A DNA stretch of 64,000 nucleotides from Bacteroidetes bacterium 2013_40CM_41_45. Its GTDB lineage: Bacteria > Bacteroidota > Bacteroidia > AKYH767-A > 2013-40CM-41-45. Below the pieces are notes generated by a model. It ran no database searches. It saw only the letters and a list, made by a program, of their open reading frames with translations, and had not been told where the DNA came from. This document shows positions 13,300 to 33,200 of this stretch, piece by piece. The stretch is taken from the NCBI GenBank assembly GCA_002215675.1, contig NGFH01000004.1, positions 1 through 64,000 of the forward strand, given 5' to 3'. The position numbers and the translations under genes are program-made. Position 1 is the stretch's first letter, and the number at the start of each line of letters is the position of its first letter.

Positions 13300-13950
13300 A
13301 TGAAAACGAAAAGCAAGCTAAGATTAATTGCGCTGACTGCAGTTGCATTGTACGCAGCTACTTCAGTTTACGCTCAATCGCAGACCAGCTCACAAATTTT
13401 TGTAAGAGAATTGCAAGCGAAACGTGCACTGGTAAATCAGCAAGTTACCGATTTGCAGGACAGGATTACATTGATGAACCAGTCGATTGCTCAGACTCAG
13501 GGATTAATTACCGAGAGGCAAAATGCAATTGCTGATTTAAATACATTGATTGCTGCAACCAATGACCAGAATCTGATTAACACATACAATCAGAAAATAG
13601 CAGGATTGAATGCAGACATTACCAGCAACCTTCAACCTCTGATTACTCAGATGCAATCAAAGATTGCGGCTATCCCCGCTCAGATTGCAGCCGTACAGGC
13701 AGAAGTTGCAGTGATAGACAATAACATTTCAATTGCTCAGCAAACGGTTGTTAAAGAAACAGCTGTTGCACAGCAGCAATCTCTTTCTCCGGCAAATGCT
13801 TCTGCTCAGCCGGCTCCTTCTTATGCTGCTACCACTCCACGCGACCCGAATAATCCTAACAACGTTCCTCTTTTCATGTCAACGGGAGACCCAATGCAGG
13901 ATGCAACTCTTGTTCGCCAGTGGCTCGCTGCTCATCCGATAGTGAAATAG
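13300..13950 (+). CDS. Secreted coiled-coil protein with WLxAH tail (small partner, cassette 1)
   Basis: 216 residues with signal peptide (MKTKSKLRLIALTAVALYAATSVYA-Q). Residues ~28-155 are a long coiled coil rich in Gln, Ala, Ile and Asn with heptad-like spacing (VNQQVTDLQDRITLMNQSI; IAAIPAQIAAVQAEVAVID). A low-complexity Ser/Ala/Pro linker follows, then the tail PLFMSTG..., DATLVRQWLAAHPI. Essentially the same tail closes the otherwise unrelated fibronectin-type protein at 22893-24263. Twenty-eight bp separate the stop from the start of the giant gene at 13979, so they are probably co-transcribed. I do not recognise a family; function is unknown. A structural or docking partner of the giant is inference from position and the shared tail. 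Confidence 0.8.
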   Translation: MKTKSKLRLIALTAVALYAATSVYAQSQTSSQIFVRELQAKRALVNQQVTDLQDRITLMNQSIAQTQGLITERQNAIADLNTLIAATNDQNLINTYNQKIAGLNADITSNLQPLITQMQSKIAAIPAQIAAVQAEVAVIDNNISIAQQTVVKETAVAQQQSLSPANASAQPAPSYAATTPRDPNNPNNVPLFMSTGDPMQDATLVRQWLAAHPIVK

Positions 13951-13978
13951 TCCTAACTAAAACAAAAAATCTACCAAC

Positions 13979-16900
13979 ATGAAAACATTTATTCAAGCAA
14001 AGAATAACTCTGTGATAAAATTCATAGCAGTTATTCTCGTCCTGTTCATTGCTTCAGTGGTGAGCGTTAATGCGCAGACGTTTAATATGACTAACGGAAC
14101 GTTTTCCACCTGTTCCGGTAACTTTTATGACAGCGGTGGTCCGGCTGGCACCTATAATGTTAATGAAAACTTTACCATTACATTTACTCCAAGCACACCG
14201 GGAGCACATCTAAATGTTCTCTTCACTTCTTTCTCTACAGAATTCGGCTGGGATGCATTATACGTATATAATGGCCCAAGTACGGCATCTCCGCTTATCA
14301 GCAGCGGTAACGGCGGAACCAGCGGTGGTTTTCCGGCAGGCGGATGGTGGGGTACTACTCTTCCCGGTGGCGTTGCCGGAATAACTTCTACTGACCCTTC
14401 AGGTGCGTTAACATTCCAGTTCCGCTCCGATGCATCAGTAATATCCACAGGTTGGGCTGCAAACATTTCCTGCATATCTCCTCCCATTGACGTGAATATG
14501 TCTAACACTTCGGTTACTACCTGCAATGCAAACTTTTATGACAGCGGTGGCCCATCGTTAAATTATAATAACAGTGAAAACTTTACGATGACGTTTACGC
14601 CCAGCGCAGGAAATAAAATAAAAGCTTTATTCTCTTCTTTCAGCACTGAGTTTGGCTGGGACGCTTTATACATATACAATGGGCCCAGTACCGCATCTCC
14701 TCTTATCAGCAGCGGAAACGGTTCAACCTCTGGCGGTTTTCCTGCCGGTGGCTGGTGGGGCTCAACACTTCCCGGTGGAGGTGGAGGAATAACCTCTACT
14801 GACGCTTCGGGCGCATTAACATTCCAGTTCCGTTCCGACTTCTCAGTTAATATGGCTGGATGGGCGGCTGTTATTTCGTGTGTTTCTGCTAACCCTGACA
14901 TTAATATGACCAACGGTACTTTCGCGGCTTGCGGTGGAAACTTTTACGATAGCGGTGGTCCGGGAGGAAGTTACAACACTTTCGAAAACTATACTCTGAC
15001 TATTAATCCTAATTCACCCGGTAACAGGGTGCAGGTTTTGTTCAATACATTCAGCACAGAGTCAAACTGGGACGCCTTATATATATATGACGGACCTACT
15101 ACCGGCTCTCCACTTATCAGCAGCGGTAACCCCGGAACGGTTGGCGGTTTCCCGGCTGGTGGCTGGTGGGGCACAACGCTTCCAGGCGGTGGTACAGGTA
15201 TCACCTCCAGCGATGCTTCAGGAGCCCTGACATTTGTATTCAGATCTGACGCAAGCGTGGTTTTACCAGGATGGTCAGCTGCAGTATCATGCGTGCCTGC
15301 TCCAACAGGCCCTCCGGGTGATATATGTACTGATGCAACAGTAATAGCATGCGGTACTCCTGTAACAGCTACAACAGTTGGTTATTCCAACACGGGTGAT
15401 CCTGTGCTTTGCGGAACTGCAGGCGCACCCAGCAGATGGTATAAATTTACAGCGCAATACACAACGGCTACCGCTTCTCTTTGCGGTTCATTATATGACA
15501 CAAGAATTTCAGCCTACAGCGGAAGCTGCGGGTCTCCTACGTGTCTTGCCGACAACGATGACTTCTGCGGACTGGCTTCACAGATATCCTTCCCTACGCT
15601 TGTGGGGCAGGTTTATTACCTCCGTGTTTATGGCTTTGGAAGCGCTTCAGGACAATTTACTCTTAATGTCACCTGCCAGGTTCCGGGCGATGCATGCTCT
15701 GGTGCAGTTCCTATTGCTTTAAGCTGCCCTGGCCCAATGATTATAACGGGAACTACGGTTGGCGCATCAACTGATGCGAGTGATTCCAATCCTTTCTGCC
15801 TTAATTCTGTTGCTCCCAGCGTGTGGTACACATTCACGGGCAATGGACAAAGTATAATAGCAAGTCTGTGCGGAGGCACGTTCTACGATTCTGAGCTTTC
15901 TGCTTATTCAGGAACCTGCGGCTCTTTGACCTGCATAACCAACAATGACGACTTCTGCGGGCTTCAGTCACAGATTCAGTTCCCCACGGTATTAGGACAG
16001 ACCTATTTTATAAGGGTGCATGGATTCGGATTTTCATCCGGTTCATTTACCTTGCATCTGTCATGTGTTGTACCTCCGGTTAATGACCTTTGCTCTGGTG
16101 TTGCCCCTGTAACTCTTACTTCGGGAGTTCCCCAGGTATTTACAGGAACAACAGTAGGTGCATCACCTGACGGCGGATTCTATACGCTTCCTACCGTTTG
16201 GCATGCTGTAACACTTACAGCTCCTTCACAGTTGACCGTTCGTCTTTGCGGAACTTCTCCTGCATTTTTAGATGCATGGATTATTATTGCCAACATTTGT
16301 CCGAGCACTTTCTTCACAGATATTTTTGCGAATAGCTGGTCACAGGATTGCGGTGACGGCAACTGGAGTGTTCGTTATAACTGTTTACCCGCCGGCACCT
16401 ATTATATTCCGGTGTTAGGAAGTGAACCTGGATTTTTCAACCCGGGTCCTTACACTCTTACGGTAACTGCAACAAGCACTCCTGTTATTGGAACGGTTAC
16501 TATAGTTCCTGCAGGCGGTGTAGCATGCGGCCCGACCGGTGTGCTTACCGTTTCTGTAAGTAACTTCAGCGGAGCTTTGCAATGGCAGTTTGAGTCGCCC
16601 GTTGGTTCCGGAATCTGGTTTAATGTAGGAGGCGCTACATTCTCACCGATAACTCTGAATGCCAACCTTGGTGTTGGACAAGAATTCGCTTCCTTTGGAA
16701 TCAGGGCAGTTGCATCGGTTTGTAGTAACCAGGCCATTTCAAACTCGGTAACCTATTCGCTCAATAACCCGAATCAACCAACAGCACCTGTCGGCCTTAA
16801 CGGCTGCGGCAGCGCGGTGGGAAGTATTTCGGCTACTCCAAATCCGTTACCTAATCATAATATCCGATGGTATAGCGCTGCTGTTGGAGGTACGCTGCTC

Positions 16901-19744
16901 GGTACGGGAAGTTCCCTTGCTGTTAACGTAACGTCATCAACGCAATATTATGCAGCGACTATTAATAACACTACCGGCTGCGAAGGCAGCGCTGCCCGCC
17001 TGCAGGTTAATGTTACCGTTTTCCCGGTACCTACTGTAACCGCAGGAAGCAACAGCCCTGTTTGCGCGGGTAGTGCAATCAACCTTACATCGGTTGGCGC
17101 TGTAACGGTAAGCTGCGGAGGAACCTTTACTATCCATGTTTTTGGATCTGGATTTGGTGATGAAACTTCATGGCAATTTAAGAACGCCTCAAACGTTGTC
17201 ATTGCAAGCGGCGGCCCGTATGGATTTGGCTTTAACCAAACCGTGTCGGTGTCTTCTACCAATGCTCCGTTTACGTTCACTATCGAAACGGTTGGTTTCT
17301 TTAATGATAACGTTGCCAGCTATACGGTATCCTGCAGCGGCAACACACTCGTTAATGCAACCATTAGCGGAGGCCAGACCAACAGCGTTCCGAATATTTG
17401 CTGCGGAGCTGCTGCTGAGACTCCTTCAACCAATGTTAATATGACCAACGGTACCGTTTCTACCTGCAGTGCAAATTTCTATGACAGTGGCGGCCCTGCT
17501 GGTAATTATACCAATGCTCAAAACTTTACATTGACATTTACTCCAAGTTCACCGGGAGCATCCATGAGAGCTGTCTTCAATTCATTCAGCACAGAATTTG
17601 GCTGGGATGCATTGTATATCTATAATGGACCTTCAATAGCATCTCCTCTTCTCAGCAGCGGAAACGGCCCAACAGTTGGCGGCTTCCCTGCAGGCGGCTG
17701 GTGGGGTTCTGCTCTGCCCAATGGCGGTGCAGCTATTACATCTACTGACGTTTCAGGTGCGCTGACATTTGTGTTCCGTTCTGATTTCTCTGTTAATTTT
17801 GCCGGATGGGCTGCAACCATGTCATGCGTGGGTGGTCCTCCTCCTCCTCCTCCATACAATTGGACCGGACCTAACGGCTATAGTGTAAATGCTCAGAATC
17901 CTTCGCTTACAGCAACACCTGCTGCACAAGGAAACTATACGGTTACATTTACAACATCGAGCGGATGTACTGCTACTGCTACCACGTTTGTAAAAGTGAA
18001 TGTAGCGCCTGTAATTTCAACGTTACAGAGCGCAACGCTCAACGGCGGAGTGGCAACTACAATTCCTGCACCTCCTACCTTCCTCGATATTCCGGTGTTT
18101 ACAGAAGCACTGACATGCGATAAGGTGGTGAATTATAATGTTGCTATTTCCGGAGACCCGGCCCCGACTGTTGGCTATTCATTCAGCGGAGCTACTACCG
18201 GAAGCGGAAGCGGCACAGGTACCGGTTCTACATTCGGAAGGTTAATACCTACAGGAAGAACTACGGTTACCGTTAACTCATCTAACGTTTGCGGTTCACA
18301 ATCCAAACAATTCCGTGTAACGGTAACAGATAATGTTGCTCCTGTTATTACACCGATACAAGTACCCGCTACTAACACCAACGCAGGCGAATGTGCATCG
18401 TTGGTAATGGTAACACAACCAAGCTTAGGCAACGGGTTGTTTGACAACTGTCCTAATTCAAGCTTGGTTTTTGTAAGCCGTTCAGATGGCAGGTCACAGT
18501 TTGAGCCATATTATGCAGGCACAACCACAGTAACCTGGCAGGCAACGGATGCTTCGGCAAACACGAGCACTGCTACACAGGATGTAGTGGTTAATAACAT
18601 CAAACCGGTTATCACCAATTTCGTTTCTAATTCAGGCAACGTAATATTTGTGAACCAGACACCTACTTTCACAGTAACGTTTACTGATGAAGACGGAGGC
18701 GGCACACACACGGTTAAATTCTATCGTGATAAGAATGATGCCTCACCCGCCAGCACGAAGGTGATAGCTCCCAACTGTACTCAGTCATGCACAGGAGTAA
18801 GAAGTTACAACGTAACCTCAGACCCTATACTGTACTCAACATCAGAAGTAGCAGAACCTAAGGTTGAAGTATTGGACGGATGTAATCTTGCAGCCGACCA
18901 AGATCCGGGCGTAACCACCATTCAATATCTTGCCATAGCAGTAGCGGGCAGTCAGTTCACTACAGCGGGCGGACATTATACTATGCCGGCAGGCGGATAT
19001 CCTTCATCTTATGAGGGCTTCGATGTAAGCATGGGCAATGTGGTGAAACCCGGCACTGGTAGCCAAAGCGGCACGTTCAAAGGTCAGTTGGAAATGAACG
19101 TTCATATTCCTAACGCAGTCGACTGGAGAGTACATACCGACAACGGAACCAACACCGATATTACTTGGGATTATCTGACCATAAGCGGATGTTCACTTGC
19201 AACGTTTAAAGGAACCTGCAGACTCAATGGGGTAACAGGATACAAGGTACTTGTTCAACAGTCAGACAAAGACCGCAATCCTGCCACGAGCAACTTTATC
19301 CGTGTTAAGGTCACGACCACTGCAGGCGCAGTAGTGTTTGACACGCAACCGGGACTTACCGAAGCATTGACATCGGGTAACGGAGGCGCATCAGCTATTA
19401 TCGCAGTGCTAACTGGTGGCAGCGTAAGGGTACACCCCGTCAACAACAACTGTACGCAGAGAGTTGAAGGCACTGGCGCGGAAGGAGAAATGTTGCAGAA
19501 CATTCCTAATCCGTTCACAGGTCAGACGGAAATTCGTTTCAACGTACCGGAAGACGGCTTGTATACTTTGAAGGTTTACAACTATCTTGGACAGGAAGTA
19601 ACAACCTTGTTCAACGAAGAAGCTACAGCCGGAGCGGTGTACAGTGTTACGTTTGACGGCAGCAACCTGGGTGCAGGCATATATACCTACAATCTTAGGA
19701 GCGCTAACGTAAATGAAACACGTAAGATGAACCTGATGAAGTAA
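13979..19744 (+). CDS. Giant CUB-domain T9SS type A protein (cassette 1)
   Basis: 1921 residues with signal peptide (FIASVVSVNA-Q). Domain order by eye: three CUB-like domains (residues ~35-440; repeated NFYDSGG, GWDALYVYNGPS, SGGFPAGGWWG, LTFQFRSD); three PPC-like domains (~445-830; SLCGSLYDTRISAYSG, DNDDFCG, YYLRVYGFG); Ig-like segments (~830-1040); an Ig-like unit split by a ~250-residue insert that contains a fourth CUB domain (~1150-1285); then the ~575-residue C-terminal module shared with the other two giants, including an HYR-like domain (FDNCPNSS, TTTVTWQATDASAN). The end (LQNIPNPFTGQTEIRFNVPE, YNYLGQEVTTL, GIYTYNL, RKMNLMK) is a T9SS type A sorting domain. It should be a secreted, cell-surface multidomain protein; ligand unknown. 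No protease motif is seen. Confidence 0.92.
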   Translation: MKTFIQAKNNSVIKFIAVILVLFIASVVSVNAQTFNMTNGTFSTCSGNFYDSGGPAGTYNVNENFTITFTPSTPGAHLNVLFTSFSTEFGWDALYVYNGPSTASPLISSGNGGTSGGFPAGGWWGTTLPGGVAGITSTDPSGALTFQFRSDASVISTGWAANISCISPPIDVNMSNTSVTTCNANFYDSGGPSLNYNNSENFTMTFTPSAGNKIKALFSSFSTEFGWDALYIYNGPSTASPLISSGNGSTSGGFPAGGWWGSTLPGGGGGITSTDASGALTFQFRSDFSVNMAGWAAVISCVSANPDINMTNGTFAACGGNFYDSGGPGGSYNTFENYTLTINPNSPGNRVQVLFNTFSTESNWDALYIYDGPTTGSPLISSGNPGTVGGFPAGGWWGTTLPGGGTGITSSDASGALTFVFRSDASVVLPGWSAAVSCVPAPTGPPGDICTDATVIACGTPVTATTVGYSNTGDPVLCGTAGAPSRWYKFTAQYTTATASLCGSLYDTRISAYSGSCGSPTCLADNDDFCGLASQISFPTLVGQVYYLRVYGFGSASGQFTLNVTCQVPGDACSGAVPIALSCPGPMIITGTTVGASTDASDSNPFCLNSVAPSVWYTFTGNGQSIIASLCGGTFYDSELSAYSGTCGSLTCITNNDDFCGLQSQIQFPTVLGQTYFIRVHGFGFSSGSFTLHLSCVVPPVNDLCSGVAPVTLTSGVPQVFTGTTVGASPDGGFYTLPTVWHAVTLTAPSQLTVRLCGTSPAFLDAWIIIANICPSTFFTDIFANSWSQDCGDGNWSVRYNCLPAGTYYIPVLGSEPGFFNPGPYTLTVTATSTPVIGTVTIVPAGGVACGPTGVLTVSVSNFSGALQWQFESPVGSGIWFNVGGATFSPITLNANLGVGQEFASFGIRAVASVCSNQAISNSVTYSLNNPNQPTAPVGLNGCGSAVGSISATPNPLPNHNIRWYSAAVGGTLLGTGSSLAVNVTSSTQYYAATINNTTGCEGSAARLQVNVTVFPVPTVTAGSNSPVCAGSAINLTSVGAVTVSCGGTFTIHVFGSGFGDETSWQFKNASNVVIASGGPYGFGFNQTVSVSSTNAPFTFTIETVGFFNDNVASYTVSCSGNTLVNATISGGQTNSVPNICCGAAAETPSTNVNMTNGTVSTCSANFYDSGGPAGNYTNAQNFTLTFTPSSPGASMRAVFNSFSTEFGWDALYIYNGPSIASPLLSSGNGPTVGGFPAGGWWGSALPNGGAAITSTDVSGALTFVFRSDFSVNFAGWAATMSCVGGPPPPPPYNWTGPNGYSVNAQNPSLTATPAAQGNYTVTFTTSSGCTATATTFVKVNVAPVISTLQSATLNGGVATTIPAPPTFLDIPVFTEALTCDKVVNYNVAISGDPAPTVGYSFSGATTGSGSGTGTGSTFGRLIPTGRTTVTVNSSNVCGSQSKQFRVTVTDNVAPVITPIQVPATNTNAGECASLVMVTQPSLGNGLFDNCPNSSLVFVSRSDGRSQFEPYYAGTTTVTWQATDASANTSTATQDVVVNNIKPVITNFVSNSGNVIFVNQTPTFTVTFTDEDGGGTHTVKFYRDKNDASPASTKVIAPNCTQSCTGVRSYNVTSDPILYSTSEVAEPKVEVLDGCNLAADQDPGVTTIQYLAIAVAGSQFTTAGGHYTMPAGGYPSSYEGFDVSMGNVVKPGTGSQSGTFKGQLEMNVHIPNAVDWRVHTDNGTNTDITWDYLTISGCSLATFKGTCRLNGVTGYKVLVQQSDKDRNPATSNFIRVKVTTTAGAVVFDTQPGLTEALTSGNGGASAIIAVLTGGSVRVHPVNNNCTQRVEGTGAEGEMLQNIPNPFTGQTEIRFNVPEDGLYTLKVYNYLGQEVTTLFNEEATAGAVYSVTFDGSNLGAGIYTYNLRSANVNETRKMNLMK
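18010..19744 (+). repeat. Shared C-terminal module, copy 1 (with T9SS signal)
   Basis: Encodes the last ~578 residues of the CUB giant, nearly identical in protein and strongly similar in DNA to 31503-33244 and 42925-44651. Landmarks in order: LQSATLNGGVA, APPTFLDIPVFT, GSGSGTGTGSTFGRLIPTG, FDNCPNSSLVFVSRSDGRSQ, FTDEDGGGTHTVKFYRDKND, GGHYTMPAGGYPSSY, NVHIPNA.DWRVHTDNGT, VLVQQSDK.RNPATSNFIR, then the sorting domain. Confidence 0.93.
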
Positions 19745-19764
19745 TTTTTAGCATCATCAATTAA

Positions 19765-19798
19765 GAAAGGGCGTTCGTCAACTGACGAACGCCCTTTC
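19765..19798 (+). terminator. Rho-independent terminator of cassette 1
   Basis: Sixteen-bp perfect stem (19765-19780 with 19783-19798; GGGCGTTCGTCA / TGACGAACGCCC core) followed by TGTTTTAT. Homologous to the terminators at 33265 and 44669 with paired (compensatory) changes in the stem. Confidence 0.9.
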
Positions 19799-19844
19799 TG
19801 TTTTATGTATTCGCATAAGAACCTTTTAAATATTTTTTTTAAGC

Positions 19845-19852
19845 TAATTTTG
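19845..19852 (+). promoter_or_regulatory. Bacteroidota -7 box (TAATTTTG) for the kinase operon
   Basis: Exact TAnnTTTG match 29 bases before the ATG of the histidine kinase. The -33 region about 19 bp upstream is a T-run (CTTTTAAA) rather than a clear TTTG. Confidence 0.5.
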
Positions 19853-19881
19853 ATTCCTAAGAGTACGCAGAGGAATACGCG

Positions 19882-22098
19882 ATGAAACTAAGTTTTGCAA
19901 AATATATTACTACAGGGAGAATTCTGGTTGTGCTCTACCTGCTTTTGTGCTTTGTAGAAGGTTATAACATATATCCCATTGTTAGCCTTACCAATCAGAG
20001 TATTCAGAGATACGATTCAATAGCTGCAACATCAACCCGCAAGCTGAATTTAATGAACGACCTGCGGAAAAATTTCAACCTTATTCAAAGCGCGGTCTTC
20101 AGGCATGTACATTCTTTTTCTGCTATATTGATGAGCGAAGAGGAAAGACAGATAGATAAAGCATTTGATGAGAACAATTCTATCCTGGATGAATATCAGC
20201 GGATAGTTGATTCAAAAGAAGAGCAAACATTGCTTAATGTGATTTTATCCTTAAGAGAAATTAATATTGAAGCGCGCGATGAGTTAATTGAATTCAGTGC
20301 GGCCGGTAAAAAAAAGGAAGCCATTGATTATTATGCAAGCACACAGGAAAGAAGCCGCCTCAGTTATAGCGATGCAGTTGAAGACCTTACCGATTATGTA
20401 GTGCGGCATACCCATGCTCAGCTGGCGGAAACGGAAAGATATATTAAGAAGGAACGGATATCCATTAACTTGCTATTGGGATTGTCCGTTATGCTTGCAA
20501 TTATAACCGGCATTGTCGTGCTATATGCCAATAAGAAATTAAATGCTGCATACTCTGAAAAGATTAAAGAATACCAACACTTTTTTATCAACAACAATGA
20601 TTTTGCGTGCATTGCCAATGTGCAGGGATATTTCGAAATCATTAACCCTAACTTTGAAAAGCGGCTGGGTTATTCTGAAAAAGAATTGCTCAAAAACCAA
20701 TTTATGCATTTCATCCATCCCGATGATATTGGCCGCACCCTTCAGGAAACTGAAAAACTGAAAACCGGCGCCTTAACGGTGCACTTTGTAAACCGCTACC
20801 GCAAAAAGAAAGGAGATTATTTGTGGCTCGACTGGAACATAACCTCTAATCCGGCTACCGGAAAACTTTATGCCATTGCGCGAGACATTACCGACAGCAA
20901 AAAAGTGGAAGATGAACTGAAAGAGAGTAATTTTTTTCTTAATGCTCTTCTCGAAAATATACCCAATATGATTTTTGTAAAAGATGCTGAAGAATTGAGG
21001 TTTGTTCGATTTAACCGTGCGGGAGAAAAATTATTAGGATATAAGCGCAGCGATTTAATAGGTAAAAACGATTATGATTTCTTCCCCAAAGAACAAGCCG
21101 ACTTTTTTGTAAACAAAGACAGGGAGGTAATTAAGAAAGGAATATTACTCGACATTAAAGAAGAAAAGATAACCACAGCAAGTGGTGAGCGCTGGCTGCA
21201 TACCAAAAAAATTCCTGTTACTGATATAAATGGCTTGCCCTTTTATCTTCTTGGAATTTCGGAAGACATAACCGACCGAAAAAAAGCCGAAGAAGCTTTA
21301 GAGCAACTAAATAAAGAGCTGGAAAAAAAAGTTGAGGAGCGGACAGAAGTATTGAGAGCAACAACAAATGAGCTGTTGGAAAATAATATTGAACTTCAAA
21401 AAATAAATTCCGAACTCGACCGGTTTGTGTACAGCACCTCGCATGATTTGCGCGCGCCGCTGCTGTCGTTAGAAGGACTATTGAATTTATCGCAGGAACA
21501 GATCGATTCAAAACATAAAGTTCAGGAGTATCATGAGGTTATGCGCAAAGTGATAAGCCAGATGGATGAAACGATAAAAGAAATCCTTGATTATTCGCGC
21601 AATGCAAGAATGGATATCAGTACCGAGCAGTTAAACATAAGGCAAATGGCATTGAATATTAAAGACAATGTCAGTCACATTACAGGGAGAAACAACATCA
21701 GGTTTTCTGCTGTGGTAGACGATACGGTTCCTTTTTTTTCTGACAAGAGCAGGGTAAACACGGTAATAAACAACCTTATTTCTAATGCATATAAATATGT
21801 GCGAGAGGACGAAGTAAACCCATATGTAAAATTTTCTTTTCTCTCTGATGCAAACGAAGGAATAATCCGTGTTGAGGATAATGGAGAGGGAATTGCAGAA
21901 GAATATAAAGAGCAGATTTTTGAAATGTTCTTCAGGGCATCGGAACGATATGAAGGTTCGGGGCTTGGTTTATATATTTGCAGGGAAATAGTAACACGGC
22001 TGCAGGGCAGCATAGAAGTGCATTCAACACCATTAAAGGGAAGCACGTTTGTTGTAAAAATCCCTAATGTGCAGAATGGGTCAAAACTCAAATTATGA
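19882..22098 (+). CDS. PAS-domain sensor histidine kinase
   Basis: 738 residues. A first membrane helix (about 12-32) and a second (about 190-212) bracket a ~155-residue helical periplasmic sensor. Two cytoplasmic PAS domains follow (first about 220-345, with FINNNDFACIANVQGYFEI and PAC-type WLDWNITSNP; second about 348-470, with LLENIPNMIFVKDAEELRF and LGISEDITDRKKAEEALE), then a coiled-coil linker. The dimerisation box has the phospho-acceptor His521 in STSHDLRAPLLSLEGLL. The ATPase domain shows the N box NNLISNAYKYV, G1 VEDNGEGIAEEY and G2 GSGLGLYICREIV. There is no receiver domain. It overlaps the response regulator by 4 bp (ATGA). It lies between two giant-gene cassettes, so control of those genes is a tempting guess without direct evidence. 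Confidence 0.95.
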   Translation: MKLSFAKYITTGRILVVLYLLLCFVEGYNIYPIVSLTNQSIQRYDSIAATSTRKLNLMNDLRKNFNLIQSAVFRHVHSFSAILMSEEERQIDKAFDENNSILDEYQRIVDSKEEQTLLNVILSLREINIEARDELIEFSAAGKKKEAIDYYASTQERSRLSYSDAVEDLTDYVVRHTHAQLAETERYIKKERISINLLLGLSVMLAIITGIVVLYANKKLNAAYSEKIKEYQHFFINNNDFACIANVQGYFEIINPNFEKRLGYSEKELLKNQFMHFIHPDDIGRTLQETEKLKTGALTVHFVNRYRKKKGDYLWLDWNITSNPATGKLYAIARDITDSKKVEDELKESNFFLNALLENIPNMIFVKDAEELRFVRFNRAGEKLLGYKRSDLIGKNDYDFFPKEQADFFVNKDREVIKKGILLDIKEEKITTASGERWLHTKKIPVTDINGLPFYLLGISEDITDRKKAEEALEQLNKELEKKVEERTEVLRATTNELLENNIELQKINSELDRFVYSTSHDLRAPLLSLEGLLNLSQEQIDSKHKVQEYHEVMRKVISQMDETIKEILDYSRNARMDISTEQLNIRQMALNIKDNVSHITGRNNIRFSAVVDDTVPFFSDKSRVNTVINNLISNAYKYVREDEVNPYVKFSFLSDANEGIIRVEDNGEGIAEEYKEQIFEMFFRASERYEGSGLGLYICREIVTRLQGSIEVHSTPLKGSTFVVKIPNVQNGSKLKL

Positions 22099-22493
22099 GA
22101 CCGAAAGTGTTTTTAATTGACGACAATAACATCGTTAATTTCATCAACAGGAAGACGATTGAAAGCTGTGGCTTTTCGGATAATATTGTTGAATACACCT
22201 CGGCAAGAAAAGCGCTGAGATATCTTGGCGAAGCGGCAAAAGGCACTCAGGAAATTCCGGACGTTATTTTTCTTGATATCAAAATGCAACTCATGAACGG
22301 GTTCGAATTCCTGGACAATTTCACCAAGCTTCCCCCAAGCGTAAAAGAAAAAGTGAAAATAATTATGCTCACTTCCTCACTTCTTGAATCGGATAAAGAA
22401 CTTGCTATGAAATATGAAAGTGTGATTGCATTTCTTAACAAGCCCATCACACGCGACAAACTGAGCAGCATAAGAAGCAAGCTTCATAACTAA
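22095..22493 (+). CDS. Single-domain (CheY-like) response regulator
   Basis: 132 residues, one receiver domain and nothing else. The acidic pair in FLIDDNN (residues 9-10), the phospho-acceptor Asp61 in FLDIKM, the Thr/Ser in IIMLTSS and the Lys in FLNKPIT are all present. There is no DNA-binding or enzymatic output domain, so it must act through protein partners or a phosphorelay. Its start overlaps the stop of the histidine kinase (ATGA), making the two a translationally coupled cognate pair. Stand-alone regulators of this type paired with PAS kinases are common in Bacteroidota. Confidence 0.94.
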   Translation: MRPKVFLIDDNNIVNFINRKTIESCGFSDNIVEYTSARKALRYLGEAAKGTQEIPDVIFLDIKMQLMNGFEFLDNFTKLPPSVKEKVKIIMLTSSLLESDKELAMKYESVIAFLNKPITRDKLSSIRSKLHN

Positions 22494-22522
22494 AATTTGG
22501 TTATTAGAAAGCTAAAGAAGTA

Positions 22523-22546
22523 AAGGAGACCTCATATCTTCTCCTT
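22523..22546 (+). terminator. Weak hairpin, possible terminator of the kinase/regulator operon
   Basis: AAGGAGA (22523-22529) pairs with TCTCCTT (22540-22546) around a 10-nt loop, 30 bp after the regulator stop. There is no proper T-tract, so termination here is uncertain. Confidence 0.35.
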
Positions 22547-22587
22547 ATTCAGTTCAGGGATAGCGATGGGTTTCATACAAGATGGAT

Positions 22588-22895
22588 AGCCGTTTACCCA
22601 TTGTTTCAGTGGTTTCGCCCATGTGAGCAAATTGTTCATAAAAAACTTTATGAACATCCAAGATTAATTTGATATAATTGCGATGAATTATTTGATGGGT
22701 ACTATTATTTGTTAGTTGCCTACTATTACCTGTTAATTTGTTTAGTTATTTATCAGTTCCAGTCAAGTATTAAGGGCTGGATTATTTTTAATATGTTTTA
22801 CATCTTTCAACATAGACATACGCATAGAGCTTAACAGATTGAAAAAAAATTATCCAATATAATTCTATTAATCCAACCTTAAATCAATTAACATG
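22588..22895 (+). repeat. Duplicated leader region, copy 1 (upstream of cassette 2)
   Basis: About 308 bp of non-coding sequence repeated at 33373-33691 upstream of cassette 3. Conserved blocks include AGCCGTTTACCCATTGTTTC, a palindrome, TAATTTGATATAATTGCGAT, CAGTTCCAGTCAA, ATCTTTC and GAGCTTAACAGATTG followed by an A-run, running into the ATG. It likely carries the promoter and leader of both cassettes, possibly with the CATCTTTC block as a weak -7 element (inference). Confidence 0.85.
22634..22655. promoter_or_regulatory. Perfect palindrome in the duplicated leader, copy 1
   Basis: GTTCATAAA (22634-22642), 4-base spacer AAAC, TTTATGAAC (22647-22655). All 18 arm bases are retained in the second copy. 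It could be an operator for a dimeric regulator or an RNA hairpin; it lies about 240 bp before the start codon. Confidence 0.55.
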
Positions 22896-24263
22896 AAAAC
22901 AAAAATCAAATCAATGAAAGTTTTATTTCTTCTCGCAACAATCATTGGCTGCTGCGTTACATTAAATTCTTCCGGACAAACTCCGTGCGACCCTGCTTCA
23001 GGATTAAGCTCAACAGGAATCACAACATCAGCAGCAACACTTAGCTGGACGGCAGTTTCCGGGGCTGTTGGTTATAATGTAATGTATCAGGAGGTGGGCA
23101 GTCCTTCAGCTATTACCGTATCTACTGCAACCGAATCAGTAACTGTTAATTCACTGAATGCTTCTTCCAATTATGAGTGGCAGGTTCAGACCGATTGCGG
23201 AAATTCCAGCCTCTCTGCTTTTGCTGCTTCGGCAACGTTCAGCACGCCTGCTTCTGTGTGCAGTGTTCCGGCTGGATTGAATACCACAGGCATCACTTTA
23301 ACGGATGTCACAATGAACTGGACGATTGTTTCGGGGGCTGCGGGTTATAATATTCAGTACAGAATAGTTGGCGCACCTTCCTGGACTTCATCGTCCTCGT
23401 GGGCTTTGTCGTCTGCAACCACTGCTTCACTGACTGTTTCTTCACTCGCTCCTGGCAATTATGAATGGCAGGTGCAAACCGATTGCGGAAGTTCGAGTGT
23501 GTCGGGGTTTAGCGCTTTGGACAATTTCAGCCCATTGGCGCAGCCGGTATGCGATATGCCGGCCGGGTTAAATGTTACCGGTGTTACTTTGACTGATGCT
23601 ATATTGAGTTGGACGGCTGTTGCGGGGGTACAGGGCTATAATGTTCGGTACCGTTTTTCCGGAAATGCAACATGGACCGAAGTGTATTCAACAACTCCAT
23701 CATTAACGGTTTCTTCCCTTACACCTGTTACGACTTATGAAGTACAGGTTCAGACAGTTTGCGCAGGTGGCGGTAAATCTTACTTCTGCAAACCAGGTTC
23801 TTTTAATACTCTTTCTGCTTCGGGGTGCAACGTTATTCCTACTGCGTTAAGCGCGGTGAGTTCCTCTGCAACTTCTTCCTTGTTAAGCTGGGTTGGCGGT
23901 GTTGATGACGGAACAGCTTATACAACTTATAGTTACGTTATTCAATACAGAGTAGCGGGAACACAAGCATGGAGCGTAACGAATTCGTCAGTGCCGTCTG
24001 TAACACTTTCAGGGCTTTCGCCATCTGCGAATTATGAATGGAGGGTTTCAACCGATTGCGGGAATTCTAACAACCGCTCGGCATTCAGCGCTATAGCTAC
24101 ATTCTCCATGCTTAGTTCAGGGCAAGGGGCAAGTCAGTATATAACGACTATTCCTAATGCGAGTAACCCATCCACACAGAGTGCAATGTTCCTTTCAACG
24201 GGCAGCTCTGCAACAGACGCTCAGATTGTTCACGACTGGTTAGTGGCTCATGGAATTTATTAA
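22893..24263 (+). CDS. Secreted fibronectin type III protein with WLxAH tail (small partner, cassette 2)
   Basis: 456 residues with signal peptide (MKVLFLLATIIGCCVTLNSSG; MKT-type start at 22893). Four fibronectin-III-like domains of ~95 residues follow (about 30-120, 125-215, 222-310, 318-405), each with LSW or MNW, GYNVxYR or GYNIQYR, and NYEWQVQTDCG-type strands. The last ~46 residues are a linker and the tail AMFLSTG..., DAQIVHDWLVAHGI, matching the end of the coiled-coil protein of cassette 1. No T9SS sorting domain is present, so export beyond the periplasm would need another route or a partner. The start of the next giant is 26 bp downstream. Function unknown; binding of glycan or protein through the Fn3 domains is inference. 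Confidence 0.85.
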   Translation: MKTKIKSMKVLFLLATIIGCCVTLNSSGQTPCDPASGLSSTGITTSAATLSWTAVSGAVGYNVMYQEVGSPSAITVSTATESVTVNSLNASSNYEWQVQTDCGNSSLSAFAASATFSTPASVCSVPAGLNTTGITLTDVTMNWTIVSGAAGYNIQYRIVGAPSWTSSSSWALSSATTASLTVSSLAPGNYEWQVQTDCGSSSVSGFSALDNFSPLAQPVCDMPAGLNVTGVTLTDAILSWTAVAGVQGYNVRYRFSGNATWTEVYSTTPSLTVSSLTPVTTYEVQVQTVCAGGGKSYFCKPGSFNTLSASGCNVIPTALSAVSSSATSSLLSWVGGVDDGTAYTTYSYVIQYRVAGTQAWSVTNSSVPSVTLSGLSPSANYEWRVSTDCGNSNNRSAFSAIATFSMLSSGQGASQYITTIPNASNPSTQSAMFLSTGSSATDAQIVHDWLVAHGIY

Positions 24264-24289: not shown

Positions 24290-27200
24290 ATGAAATCAAT
24301 TACTAAAAACTCAATAAACATGAAAACTATAAATTACTCACGTTTTGTATGTTCCGTCCTGCTGATACTGGGATTGTGGACAACAAATTCCTTTGCTCAG
24401 ACAACTCTTATTAACCCTGCGGGGGACGGTGGTTTTAGCAACGGGTCTACCTTTGCAGCTAATGGATGGACGGTTGCCAATTACGGCAGCTCGGTTAACC
24501 AATGGGTTGTAGGAACTGCTATCTCGACTGCGCCATTCTCAGGAAACAGCGCTTATATTTCCTTAGACGCAGGCGTCAGCAATACTTACAATATTACCTC
24601 AAGTACTTCAGTTTACTTTTACAGAGACGTAAACGTACCTGCGGGTGAACTGACTATGATGCTGACCTTTAACTGGAATGGATTTGGAGAAAGTTCCTGG
24701 GATATGATTGAGGTTTGGTCTGCTCCAACTTCGGTTATTCCGACAGGTGAGGCACATCCCGGAAGTGGTTTATGTACTCCTATTCCAGCCAGCTTAACAG
24801 GATCTACGTGCCTGGGTACTTTCCAATTAGTGAGCACTATTCAAACAGCCACTATAACATTTACTGTTCCGGCAAGTGGTCCAAGAAGAATTATTTTCAA
24901 TTGGAAGAGCGATACATCCGTTGGCACTCAGCCGGCAGGTTCGGTTGATAATATTTCACTCGTTACTATTCCCCCTTGCTCGACTCCCACAGCGCAGCCA
25001 ACCGGTCTTGCATTGACATCTTCCCCCTCTCAAATCAACGGCACTTTCACGGCAGCTTCCCCAGCTTCTGACGGATATCTTGTAGTGAGATACCCAACCG
25101 GTTCGGCTGTAACCAACCCGTTCAACGGAACAACGTATACTGTTGGCGGTGCGTTAGGACTTGGAACAGTCGTCCAAGCCGGAGCCGGTACATCTTTCAG
25201 CACCGCCGGATTGCTGAACAACACTTCCTATGATTTTTATGTTTACTCCATGAACAATGTATGTACGGGAGGTCCGTTATACATAACTGCCAGTCCGCTC
25301 ACAGGCACAGCTTCCACACCTGTCTGCTTAACTCCGACAGCGCAGGGGGCAGGTCTTGCACTGACACCTATTTCCATTTCACAAATCAATGGAACTTTCA
25401 CGGCTGCTTCTCCTGCTGCTGACGGATATCTTGTTGTAGGTTATATCAGCGGCAGCACAGAAGTCCCTCCGGTTGACGGAACAGTATATGCCGCAGGCGG
25501 TGCATTAGGATTTGGCAAGGTGGTTCAATCCAGCAATGCCACTTCTTTCAGCGCTACCGGATTGATAGCCGGCACTTCGTATGATGTTTATGTTTACGCT
25601 TATAATATATGTTCCTCAGTCAGGAAATACTTAATAGCCGGACGTCTTACAGGAACCGCTTCCACTCTTGCTGCTACCGCATACACGGCTACCGCACAAG
25701 GCGGTCTATGGTCGAATGCTCAAACATGGGCTGGTGGTGTCGTACCCGTTACAGGAAATGATGTATCCATTCCCGCCGGTTCAATTGTTACCGTTGACGT
25801 GGCAGTTACCATGCATAATTTAGACATCAGCGGTTTGCTTCAATGGAATACCGTTGCCAATGCAATGACGTTGCAAGGCAACCTGACCGTTAACAGCGGC
25901 GGTGTGTTTTTACCTTATACTTCCGCTCTTACGCCATTAGGGGTAACGGTAAACATATTCGGCAACTTCACAAACAACGGTTATGCAAACTGCGCTTTAG
26001 GCACAGGAACACAAACCTTAATTGCCTTTAACGGCATCGGTTCTATATTAGGTGGCACGGGTACTTTTCAACCCGGCATTGACGGAAGAGGTATTATCCG
26101 CCAGTTGTTTTTCCAATCCCTGGGAAGTTCAACTATAAATACCTCACAGAACTTAACTACTTTTAACCTGGCTCATGGAGCCGGCTCTTTAAATACGAAC
26201 GGCAAATTAAAAATAGATAATACGTCACAACTTTATGGCATGGCATTAAACACGCAGGTTGCCAGTGTGGCTGTAACCACTATGGGTACTTACAGCGTGG
26301 CTCCCGTAGTGTTTGGAGTTGCAGTTACTCAATATGCTAATGCCCTGGCGGCAACCCTGAATTCAAGATATGTATCCGGTACGCACGTATACTTATGTAC
26401 TGTGGCAGGAACATTTAATGCCACTGCCCCTACATGGACTACAACAATACCGGATGCTACCAGCGGACCCACTTTACTATATATCGGTGAAACGGGCACA
26501 CTTGGAAACCCTTATCAAATTACACTCACAGCACTTGGCACTCAATACTTTTTCAATGGTAGTTTGTATACATGTACCACCGCAGGTACTCCAACAGATG
26601 CAGGCGCTGCTTCCTTGGGAACAACGCCTAATGTCCTATATACTTCGGGCACTGCAGTATTCCGTTATGCAGGTACTCCTGCTATGGTTTCAGTTAATTT
26701 TAACGGAGCGGCAACTTTAAACGTGAGAAGCTTAAACCTCATCAATGGCGGAAGCGGTTATTCTTCTTCCACCGCGCCTACGCTTGTATTCAGCGTTGGT
26801 GTTGCCGGTGGTACGGTCACAACAACAGCCTTTGCCACTCCTGTTATCTTGTATAGTATTTTTGGCTCAGCAAGCTGCCAGGTTCAAAGGTCAGGTGTTG
26901 CTACTTTTTCAGGCGGCTTAATCATCAACAGCGACCAGGGAGCATCTGCTTCCGGCAATATTCAGTCATCATCGGGTGTGGGTAATATTTCAACGCTCAG
27001 CGGTGGTGTGAATTATACTGTTGCCCCGCAGATTGCTTTTGCCGGTCCATTAGCTCTTAACCTTATTACTAACCCTGGCTCGGGTTATAGCGCGGCTCCA
27101 ACCATCACCGTTTCCGGTGGAACTATTATTGCCGGTGTCGCTTACGCTTCAGCGAACTTTACAATTACCGTTAACCAGGGAACCGTACAATCAGTTTACC

Positions 27201-30200
27201 TGACTTCCACATCGGCTATCTATTCTGTTCCCCCCACCCTTACGATGTCAGCGCCCGGAGGAGCAGGCACAACAGCAACCCTGGAATTCCCTGCCACCTG
27301 CTGGCCTGCAGCAACTGCTAATATTGGAACCAATGGACAGATTCTTAGCTTTACAATGACTAACAACGGGTTCGGTTATACGAATGTTCCGTTAGTGGCA
27401 TTCGGTCCTACAAGCGGTACACCGCAAGGCGGCACATTTACAACAGCAGCTACAGCTCCAACAGCACGGGTTGCTTTGTATAATGTGGTATTAAACTTCT
27501 TTGCTCCTGCAACATCGGCTGTGGCTGCTCCCGATGATGCTATGATACCTTCAAACAGAAAAATAAATAACCTTGCCTTAAATGGTAATGGCAATGGTTT
27601 TAATTTATCCAGTAATCTTACGATTTTTGCTAACAGCGGCTTTTTTACTCCCTTGATTTTTGTAGCCAGTTTATCCAGTCCTGGTAATATATTAAATTTA
27701 AATGGCAATAACCTGCTGTTTACCTGGAATGGTTATGCAGGTGCATTCAGCACCTTTAACAGTGGCGGTGCCAATGTGTATATAAAAAATGGCTCCATGA
27801 CCTTGACAGGCAGGGGCGGTGCGGGCACCTTTAATTATCCGTTTGCAGGCACTACAACTTCAGGTGTTTTTACCTGGTTTGTCGGCACTACTCCAACAGC
27901 TATAACAACCGGTTGTAATGCAACAAAATATACAGTAACTGAATTGGGCGCCCCAAGCAACGGAACACTCGGAAACGGGAGCGCCATTGGCAACAGGGCT
28001 TACAGAGCGCAGTTTAATTCAGGCGCTGTGTCGGGTACCAATCCAACGATTACGATGCACTTTAATTCGCTGGACGGATTATCTACAACTCAAGACCTGT
28101 TGTTTCTTGGCGATGCCCCTGCTTTGTCAGGCCCATGGACGGTGAGAAGCACTGCCTTTGGCCCTTCGGGCGCATTACCTGCAGTCGGCTCTAAGATAAC
28201 GGCAACCGTGGCTCCCGGTCCCATAACCATTAACCCAGATAATTATTATGCATGGTTAATGGCGCTGCCTTGCACAGGTCCACCGGATGTGGCAGTTGTT
28301 ACCGGTCCTTCAACTGCTTGCAGCGCAGCAAACATGACACTTACTGCTGCGGGCATATCCACTAATTTAGGCATTACCAGACAATGGCAGTCAGCTTCGT
28401 CTTGTGGGGGTCCATGGACTAATATTGCAGCTGCTACCGGCCCAACCCTTACTACAACTCAAACGGCTACCACTTCATATAGAATGTTAGTGACATGTAC
28501 GTTTACCAGTCAAAGCACTCCCAGCAATTGTATTACAGTAACCGGTGCAAGCGGAGTTATTCTTCCTGTTATTACTTCAGTTACAGCAAATCCAACACCG
28601 GTATGTTTTAACGGATCCACCACGTTGACTGCGAATACTGCGGCAATTGCGGGCAATTATACTTTGAGTTCAATTCCGTATGCCCCAATTAGTCCGCCGG
28701 GAAGTACGATTGCCGGACCTATAGGAGATGATGTCTTAAGCGGCATCATTCCAATAGGATTCAATTTTACTTTCTACGGAAACACCTATACAAATGCATA
28801 TATTTCTACAAATGGCTATTTAACGTTCAATACTCTTTCCGGTGCTGGTTGCTGTTCAAGCCCGTTATTACCAAGTGCGGGTACTCTGCCGGATAACTTA
28901 GTGGCATTAGATTGGGTAGATTTAAATACTTCCTCTGGAGGAAATATTGATTATTTCAACTTAACGAGCCCCAACCGGTTTGTTGTTAGATATAATGCCG
29001 TCTCTGTTTATCTTGCCGGAGGCGGCACAGGTCAGGTCTCGGGTCAGATAATACTTTACCAAGACGGTACAATTGAAGTGCACAGTACTTCCGTTACAAC
29101 TAATTATGCTGCACATCCTCAAAGTCAGGGAATTGAAAACGCCGGAGGTACTTTAGCTACAACTGTTCCCGGACGAAATTCAGTTGTAGGTTGGACAGCC
29201 ACAAATGATGCCTACCGTTTCAGCCCGCCAACAGGAACATTTGCTTATACATGGTCCACAAGTGGTCCGGGCGTTTTATCCAGTACGACAACCAACCCGA
29301 CAACCGGTACATCCATTACGGGAAATACTACCTATAACGTAATAGTTACCAATGGGGCCTGCATTGCAACAGGCAGTGTAGCAGTCGCTCCGGGCGGACC
29401 TCTTGGTACTGCAGTAACAGCAACGCCTCCCTCATCAGCATCTGCTTATTGTACTCCGATATATACCAGCTATGACGGAACTGATTATATTTCCAACGTA
29501 ACCTTAAACGGAAGCCCTGCTATAAATAATACTTCCGGCGCAACTGTTTTGCCTGGGTATTCTCCTTTCCTTGGTATAAGCACAACCCTGGCAGCAGGTG
29601 GTACCTTTACTATTTCCGTAACGGATGGTTCATTCGGTTCCAATGAAAATCTGACTGCTTTTATTGATTATAATCAGGATGGTGTATTTAACGTAGCGAC
29701 AGAGCAAATATTGCCGAATTTTATTACAACAGCTGCCTTTCAAACAACTACCGCATCCTTTACAGTACCTGCAAATGCTATCAACGGAACTACAAGGTTA
29801 AGGGTAGTTGACAATTATTTCACTACTCCTGCTCCGCCTTGTCCGACAGCGGGATTTGGAGAGACGGAAGATTATACAATTAATATCACAGGTGGTATAA
29901 CACCTTCAGCTCTTGTCTGCCCAGGTCTTCCCTGGACATTGTCAGCTGTTATAACAGGCGGTGGCGCTCCTTATACTATCCTTTGGAGTGGTGATCCGGC
30001 AGCAACGGCAGGATTGATTACGAATAATACAGCTACGGTTACAGCTATACCACTTGCGCCCACAACTTATAGTGTTTTAATTACAGATAATTGCGGTATT
30101 ACCGCAACACAAAGTGTATTTGTAAATGTAAGGGTAACCACGCCTACGATAGGCACTGTCACTGCAAGTTCAGCTTCGGGTTGCGGAGTAACACCGGCTC

Positions 30201-33200
30201 CTCCGAACATTTCAGGGGCGCCTGTTACTTTCGCAGTTGATGCATTTACCGGCGATAATCTTATCTGGCAATTTAATGTTAACGGTGGTGCCTGGACAAC
30301 GATTCCCGGAGCGTTAACATCTCCAATATCACTTGTTCCGACCATTCCTCAAGGTGGCGGTCCTGTAACATTTGGATTGCGTGCTCAAAGTTATTTCTGT
30401 GCAATAAATCCTGCTACTTCAAATGCGGTGACATTCATTATGGATGACCCGGCTGCTCCCACTGCTGTTACTGGGGGAGCTCGCTGCGGCCCTGGTATCG
30501 TACCGGTTACGGCAAGCGTACCTGCCGGGCAGACAGTGGAATGGTACACTGCAGCCACAGGCGGCACTCTTCTTGCCACAGGAAGTTCGTATAATTATCC
30601 TGCAACCGCAAGCACAACCATTTACGCGGCAGACCGCAATCCTTCTTCAGGATGCCTTGGTTCTTTGCGTAGGGGTTCGAGCATAACGGTCAATAACATA
30701 CCGACTGTGACGGCAAGCAGCAACAGTCCTGTTTGCGTGCCGAACGCTATAAATCTTACCGGCACTTCCGGTTCTATCCCTGTAGCGGGAGGTACCTTCA
30801 ATAATGGCGTTCCTCCTATAGGAGGTTCCAATGCTTACCCGTTCAATACAGGTACGGCAACACCCAAGTTGATTCAGTGGTTTGTCGCCCCGGGCGAGTT
30901 TAACAGTCCCGCCCCGGCCACTCCTGGTACAATAAATTCCATAAGCTTCTTTGCTTTAACAACTGGCTCTGCGACCTTCACCAACTTTACCATAAGGTTA
31001 GGGCAAGCGAGTAGTCCGTTTGCAGGCGGTTCGATCTATGCTGGTCCAATGACCGCTGTTGTTGGTCCCGCAAACATGTTAGTTTCTGCACCTACTGCTC
31101 TTGGATGGACCAGTACAATAACCCTTACAACACCTTTTTTATATGACCCATCTCAGTGGCTTGTTGTTGAGGTTTCGCATTGCGGATATATCGGGACGGG
31201 ATGGCAAACACCTCAGAATACCCTAAGTGGTGTAAGGAGAACTTATAATAACGGTGGTTTCAGTTGTTCACCAGTTTGGGTGGGAAATGATGCCACCATG
31301 GCTGGTATCACTATCCAAATGGCATCTCAAACATTCGGCTACTCTTGGACGGGTCCAAACACTTTCTCAAGTTTTGATCAGAACCCGGTTAGAACACCAA
31401 GTATTCTTGCCCAGGAAGGTGTATATACAGTTACAATTACTGATAATGGCACCGGCTGTAATTCGTCTTCTACAACTTCAGTTATAGTTAATGCGGCACC
31501 TCAGATTGTATCGCTTCAGAGTGCTACTTTGAATGGCGGAGTTGCTGCATCATTCCCCGCACCTCCTACCTTCCTGGATATTCCCGTGTTTACAACAGCC
31601 ACAACCTGTGATAAGGCGGTTAATTATAATGTGGTTATTACGGGTAAGCCCAACCCGGCCGAAGCGGTGAGCGGAATTACCCACACCTTCAGCGGAGCAA
31701 CCGTTGGCAGCGGAAGTGGTACGGGTACCGGTTCGACCTTCGGAAGGTTGATTCCAACCGGCAGAACCACGGTGATTGTTGCTGCAAACAATGTGTGCGG
31801 TAATCAGAGCAAGACGTTCCGTGTAACGGTAACGGATAATGTTCCTCCTGTCATCACACCGATACAGGTATCTGCCACCAATGCCAATGGAGGCGAATGT
31901 TCTTCTTTAGTACAGGTAACACAGCCCAGTATAGGCAACGGGTTGTTTGACAACTGCCCCAATTCAAGCTTGGTTTTTGTAAGCCGTTCCGACGGCAGGT
32001 CACAATTTGAGCCGTATTATGCAGGCACAACCACGGTAACCTGGCAGGCAACAGATGCTTCGGCAAATACAAGTTCTGCTACGCAGAATGTAGTGGTTAA
32101 TAACATCAAACCGATCATCACCAGTTTCGTTTCTAATTCAGGCAACCTGATATTTGTGGGTCAGACTCCTACGTTCACAGTAACGTTTACTGATGAAGAC
32201 GGAGGCGGCACGCACACGGTTAAATTCTACCGTGATAAGAATGATGCTGTCCCTGCTAATGTGAAGACACTCAGCCCCAGCTGCACCCAATCATGTTTGG
32301 GAGTAAGGAGTTACAGTGTAACGTCAGACCCGGTATTGTATTCTAATTCAGAAGTAGCCGAGCCCAAGGTTGAAATTCTGGACGGATGTAATCTTGCAGC
32401 CGACCAGAATCCTGGAGTAACCACGGTGCAGTATCTTGCCATAGCAGTAGCAGGCACCCAGTTCACCACGGCAGGTGGCCACTACACTATGCCGGCAGGC
32501 GGATATCCGTCCTCATATGTGGGCATGGATATAAGCATGGGTAATGTTGTAAAACCGGCAAGTAGCGGCAACAGCTTTAAGGGACAATTGGAAATGAACG
32601 TTCATATTCCAAATGCGCCTGACTGGAGAGTGCACACCGACAATGGAACCAACACCGATATTACCTGGGATTATCTGACCATAAGCGGATGTTCTTTGGC
32701 AACATTTAAGGGAGCCATACTGGTTAACGGAGTGAGTGGCTATAAGGTGCTGGTACAACAGTCAGACAAGACGCGTAACCCTGCCACGAGCAACTTTATT
32801 CGTGTTAAGGTAACGACCAACTCGGGAACCTTGGTGTTTGACACCCAACCGGGCCTTACCGAAGCATTAACATCGGGCAACGGAGGAGCAGCAGCTATCA
32901 TCGCAGCGCTGACAGCAGGTACTATCAAGGTACAACCGTCTAACAGCAGCAGTTGTACGCAGAGAGTCGAGGGTGGTATGGATGGAGAGATGTTACAGAA
33001 CATCCCCAATCCATTTACCGGTCAGACAGAAATCCGTTTCAGCGTACCGGAAGACGGGCTGTATATACTGAAGGTGTACAATTATCTTGGACAGGAAGTA
33101 ACAACGTTGTTCAACGAGGAAGCTACAACCGGAACAGTGTACAGTGTTACTTTTGATGGCAGCGATCTTGGTGCAGGAATATATACCTATACTCTTAGAA

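Follow-up and report, generated by a model that had tools for sequence, protein, structure and literature searches.

A predicted helical motif on small proteins encoded beside long T9SS cargo genes in Bacteroidota, with a putative short form in two tails before giant genes

To our knowledge, the handling by the T9SS of cargo proteins of several thousand residues is poorly understood. Short regions found on otherwise unrelated proteins are already known. In dockerin-cohesin docking, diverse proteins bear a short module at one end by which they attach to a large scaffold. The T9SS C-terminal sorting domains of types A, B and C (TIGR04183, TIGR04131 and NF033708) are short C-terminal regions on unrelated exported proteins. 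Helper proteins have been described for T9SS export as well. According to the available text of PMC12618676, a dedicated PorP/SprF shuttle is frequently encoded immediately downstream of type B cargo, and type A cargo is considered to depend on shared components, PorV among them. The extended T9SS translocon contains a Skp homologue, SkpA, which the available parts of PMC10994853 present as a small periplasmic helical protein tied to T9SS export.

We analysed a stretch of 64,000 nucleotides (the window) in which three small genes each precede a giant gene on the forward strand. P1 (13300..13950, +) is an ORF for a small, coiled-coil-like protein of 216 aa, predicted to be exported, whose domain matches were weak and of the coiled-coil type only. 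It ends 28 bp before g1 (13979..19744, +), a giant of 1921 aa with PPC-like domains and a T9SS type A sorting domain. P2 (22893..24263, +), a small protein of 456 aa with FN3 domains and also predicted to be exported, ends 26 bp before g2 (24290..33244, +; 2984 aa), whose type A sorting domain was above the NCBIfam cut-off and scored 26.6 against a cut-off of 27 in Pfam. P3 (33689..34237, +), a third small protein of the predicted exported kind (182 aa) for which domain scans found no family match, precedes the third giant, g3 (34281..44651, +; 3456 aa). P1 and P2 end in similar tails, NVPLFMSTGDPMQDATLVRQWLAAHPIVK (13861..13947, +) and AMFLSTGSSATDAQIVHDWLVAHGIY (24183..24260, +), both followed directly by the stop codon. 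The tail is absent from P3, and is thus present in two of the three partner-giant pairs of the window. The interval from g1 to P2 also encodes, at 19882-22493 and likewise on the forward strand, a 738-aa PAS-sensor-kinase-like and a 132-aa response-regulator-like protein (labels given by eye).

No dockerin match was found in P1 or P2, and dockerin-cohesin serves here as a works-like comparison only, docking by the tails being a proposal. The domain scans reported no PorP/SprF family match for P1-P3, and the cargo class of g1 and g2 is type A, not type B as for PorP/SprF cargo. No Skp family match was reported for P1; P1 may resemble SkpA, a small, periplasmic, helical protein, but SkpA is a general part of the translocon, encoded in its own operon and not beside cargo genes, as far as the available parts of PMC10994853 describe it.

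The sequence-only reading of this DNA had described a tail of about 30 residues shared by small partner proteins that differ in their bodies, lie directly before giants and lack a T9SS sorting domain. This description was confirmed. In blastp, the similarity between P1 and P2 was confined to the last ~48 residues (19/48 identical, 40% identity, E 1e-7), and neither protein matched TIGR04183, TIGR04131, NF033708 or PF18962, the models of the T9SS sorting domain. The likeness also extends about 15 residues upstream of the 30-residue tail, into a P/N/T-rich stretch. Identical residues occupy 16 of the 46 columns of the tail alignment, including F.STG....DA..V..WL.AH.I. AlphaFold2 placed helices at the P2 tail, at a mean pLDDT of 44 that is not reliable.

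A profile of the two tails recovered the P1 and P2 places in the 3.38-Mb window genome (G000) at E 2e-30 or better, with no further clear copy there (the next match, at E 0.47, is internal to a 382-residue frame, near its middle). The tail profile search proposed in the sequence-only reading was productive to that extent only: used alone as query, the window tails gave nothing credible in 99 relatives or in 41 other genomes of the order. With the full P1 as query, the matches besides the P2 tail were coiled-coil-like and partial, in three genomes. Candidates set aside were 21 loci of other genomes that, read in frame, had the look of chance (an endonuclease III-like protein, for example), and a lookalike in L016, NNPDNPNNPPLYM, which sits mid-protein.

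The same codon is used at 8 of the 16 identical tail residues, where codon usage predicts 6.5, so the two tails are not a recent DNA copy of each other. A DNA-level cause of the similarity was rejected, the DNA likeness between the tails being weak and the codon agreement near expectation. On this codon evidence the tails are old relative to synonymous change. The stretch upstream of P2 (22588-22892) aligns with that upstream of P3 (33373-33688) at 316 positions with 85% identity, as far as the start codon; these stretches are duplicated promoter regions, though P2 and P3 are unrelated. The three giants have a common C-terminal module (18023-19741, 31514-33241 and 42936-44648) with 83-86% identity. 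It follows from these two sets of identities that units have been duplicated here, the small proteins changing meanwhile.

The sequence-only reading had tentatively connected the tail with this 575-residue module, a connection that was not supported. Among the 395 genomes searched, the module was near-complete in G000 only, and the partner of the third module-bearing giant has no tail. Nearly all matches outside G000 comprised the first ~230-250 residues, and one (G134) comprised residues 46-470; being mostly partial, they could not serve to find partners.

Hypothetical proteins of Bacteroidota often hold a segment like "TGNPExDxxxYxxAKxxWIxxNPExY". A consensus of this segment was our starting query, and short ORFs from other genomes matched it over its full length. 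Eleven rows from those matches, and zero rows from the window, made up the A4 profile, which at E 0.1 or better matched 52 of the 395 genomes of the class, the weakest matches probably by chance. Nearly all of the 61 aligned segments share the motif pattern P-x-[FY]-x-x-[ST]G-[ND]-x3-D ... W-x3-[NH]P. The distance from D to W is usually 11 residues; it is 7 in both window tails, and shorter spacing also occurs in G086, G050 and G019.

The in-depth motif search covered one class sample. Fifty-two motif genes were called including P1 (51 without it), in 41 genomes and 16 families; L150, L157, L165, L174 and a third place in L158, dropped by the ORF caller or having E >0.05, are not among the 51. 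In the phylum sample the motif was found in 0 of 395 genomes at E 0.001, and so either its distribution is patchy or that sample held no carriers. A profile scan of genome contigs gave five loci, four of them on contigs already sampled. L195, in an Armatimonadetes record, was rejected as a chance match inside an 890-residue frame. No family for the motif was found in Pfam or NCBIfam, in agreement with the earlier expectation that the tail is not part of a larger known domain, and searches of open-access full texts returned nothing about this motif or about small proteins that accompany type A cargo.

In a passive account of the tails, whole partner-giant units would have been duplicated, and each small gene's 3' end would have travelled with the giant as a relic with no function of its own. 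The duplication itself fits such an account, given the 85% identity of the 316 bp before P2 and P3 and the 83-86% identity of the giants' 3' module. It is nevertheless very improbable: the tail codons agree no more than usage predicts, yet the residues have been kept; the motif recurs on unrelated bodies in 16 families; and the duplicated unit of P3 is the very one that has no tail.

The motif proteins are short (103-329 aa, median 149). By a crude rule of our own, 48 of 52 carry a signal peptide or lipoprotein signal, compared with 77 of 163 controls. The last motif copy lies a median of 20 residues from the protein end, and the motif is often internal or repeated, some proteins having two or more copies; the strictly C-terminal position seen in the window, which the sequence-only reading had made part of its definition, is therefore not general. 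No Pfam or NCBIfam family matched more than one of the 29 motif proteins scanned, and a PDB search returned one weak match (E 0.04). AlphaFold2 predicted helices at the motif in three sequences (mean pLDDT 62); the models are weak, which ruled out a fold search. The motif proteins of L132, L135 and L162, three genomes of one family, have lipoprotein-like N-termini.

A sorting peptide had been one of the roles first proposed for the tail, and its near-C-terminal position and T9SS context are what might be expected if it directed the small proteins' own sorting as a T9SS signal not yet recognised. We give this hardly any credence. The models of types A, B and C gave zero matches, a T9SS sorting domain was found in 0 of the 29 motif proteins scanned, and the motif is often internal or repeated. 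Type A sorting domains are beta-sandwiches of ~100 residues according to the available text of PMC12618676, whereas the motif is a predicted short helix that is not strictly terminal.

We then compared the window tails with the wider motif. The best match of A4, which contains no window rows, in the whole window genome was the P1 tail (E 0.93), and the P1 tail was again the best match there with the 37-row A5 profile (E 0.25). Neither value is significant alone; what counts is that both fall on a place named beforehand. In profile-profile comparison, the tail pair scored 27.2 against A5 (E 2.3e-6 for a single comparison), compared with a maximum of 14.2 among 200 column shuffles of the pair. 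The P1 tail alone scored 30.9, above 359 of 360 other C-termini, and the single C-terminus that outscored it belongs to L150, a motif-type protein under the calling threshold. The alignment of the P1 tail to the motif requires a four-residue gap between D and W, about one helical turn. With those gap columns removed, the profile matched the P1 tail over its whole length (20.8 bits, E 5e-5 among 4122 ORFs), the columns having been picked after the alignment was seen. The P2 tail alone scored 13.1 against the motif profile, which is background; P2 is included only because its tail resembles that of P1, and the motif profile alone does not recognise it. A mixed profile finds both tails, a recovery that is circular because window rows are included.

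These comparisons are good evidence that the P1 tail is a member of the motif, a variant with one helical turn less. It is improbable, by comparison, that the window tails stand outside the wider motif, resembling each other by descent within their lineage and the motif, in the case of P1, by convergence. Convergence would explain the background score of the P2 tail, the need for a four-residue gap, which in the gap-built profile was picked post hoc, and whole-genome E-values of 0.25-0.93. It sits badly with the shuffle and C-terminus controls for P1, with the best whole-genome match falling on P1 with two profiles, with the alike genomic setting and with the shorter-spacing members in G086, G050 and G019.

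The setting of the motif genes was assessed by asking whether the next gene lay on the same strand, within 150 bp downstream, and encoded at least 1000 aa. This was so for 26 of the 51 motif genes; 12 were undecided, the downstream gene being cut by a contig or region end, and 13 failed. Among control genes of 80-350 aa from the same loci, 1 of 158 passed (Fisher p 6e-18, in a test that ignores relatedness). The median gap to the downstream gene was 18 bp, with five four-base overlaps, and 8 of the 13 failures still have a same-strand gene for 268-818 aa within 25 bp. The order is reversed in G205 and G404, where the motif gene follows that of a protein whose end was judged T9SS-like by eye; this protein is 2777 aa long in one case and truncated in the other.

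In a later set, obtained with another profile, 8 of 12 places had, within 39 bp, a gene on the same strand that encoded 650 aa or more, and five of these genes encoded at least 1000 aa. The four misses were two places outside called genes, one unrelated 534-aa host with an opposite-strand neighbour, and one place with only an overlapping opposite-strand ORF. In G019, from the order of the window genome, two motif-type genes are followed by a giant that shares 34% identity with g2 across the N-terminal 215 residues, and in G004 and G008, from its family, a motif gene is followed by the gene of a T9SS-like protein of ~500 aa. In several genomes of one genus, g31 (L240, L245 and L158), motif-type genes occur in runs of two or three, and after each of them comes the gene of a T9SS-like protein.

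Motif genes are coupled to long T9SS cargo genes. The arrangement before giants noted in the window therefore recurs for the wider motif, and its carriers are not mostly cytoplasmic proteins lacking such a neighbour, being mostly exported by prediction and linked to long cargo genes. This gene coupling strongly suggests that each small protein is a partner of its giant.

Scanning the last 110 residues of the downstream proteins (28 of 29 C-termini, the masked L147 protein being left out) identified T9SS sorting domains in 22 of 28 complete proteins, 21 of type A and one of type B; Pfam likewise gave 21. The downstream proteins of L243, L167 and L183 have a W..NW-type end in place of a recognised sorting domain, possibly reflecting a frame-shift or a different type of terminus. 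With g1 as the seed, a PPC-like domain was found in 38 of 49 motif-downstream proteins (g1 included) but in just 11 of the 185 remaining proteins with 300 aa or more; the PPC label is based on a single sub-threshold Pfam match, in the giant of L140. The domain was not found in g2, g3 and several other downstream proteins, and so it cannot be the only ligand.

The giants are of T9SS surface type, with Ig, PKD, FN3, CUB and lectin-like domains, which, together with the one-to-one gene pairing and the close spacing, raises the alternative that the giant is the base of a surface layer or fibre to which the partners contribute structural subunits. The motif would then be a tag for subunit-subunit assembly that acts extracellularly and has no part in export. 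We consider this unlikely, though a contender to be taken seriously: the 29 partners scanned have no T9SS sorting domain, which leaves their crossing of the outer membrane unexplained, and three partners of one family are lipoprotein-like. We favour a periplasmic or outer-membrane site of action, since the partners carry Sec-type signals but lack a sorting domain.

The reading that we prefer, and hold to be about evenly balanced between right and wrong, is that the motif is a docking element on partners of T9SS giants and that the window tails are its shortened local form. One conserved short helix on varying bodies is most simply read as docking on something constant. P1 and P2 would be small Sec-exported partners, one for each giant T9SS cargo protein, encoded directly before it. 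Their motif would consist of an extended P-x-[FY]-x-x-[ST]G-[ND]-x3-D cap, a short helix with the conserved Trp and the [NH]P. The bodies may vary (coiled coil, FN3 or disordered) while the motif binds a constant target, which may be part of the T9SS apparatus or an element that recurs among the giants. In this way each partner would stay next to its giant, whether in the periplasm or at the outer membrane, and might aid its export competence, its handover or its surface assembly. Export of the partners, docking, ligand and benefit are all steps that we infer. Counting against docking, P3 precedes a giant and has no tail, and 13 of the 51 motif genes fail the neighbour test.

Seen in this way, the motif genes resemble PorP/SprF shuttle genes, which, in the source text available, are dedicated genes beside a large T9SS cargo gene that give cargo-specific help in export or placement. 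They differ in protein type, and also in that the shuttle genes lie downstream of type B cargo, whereas motif genes are usually upstream and their neighbours mostly of type A (21/28). Tentatively, and short of an even chance, many Bacteroidota may have a cargo-specific escort or assembly system for mostly type A giants, apart from PorV and the PorP/SprF shuttles, in which each giant has its own small exported partner and the partners have in common one short helical motif on unrelated bodies; the window would hold a divergent short form of it. In 41 genomes of 16 families the motif marks genes beside T9SS cargo, which makes it a concrete candidate for a factor that helps particular cargo to be exported or assembled on the surface. 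It also offers a means to recognise such partners among proteins without a Pfam or NCBIfam model.
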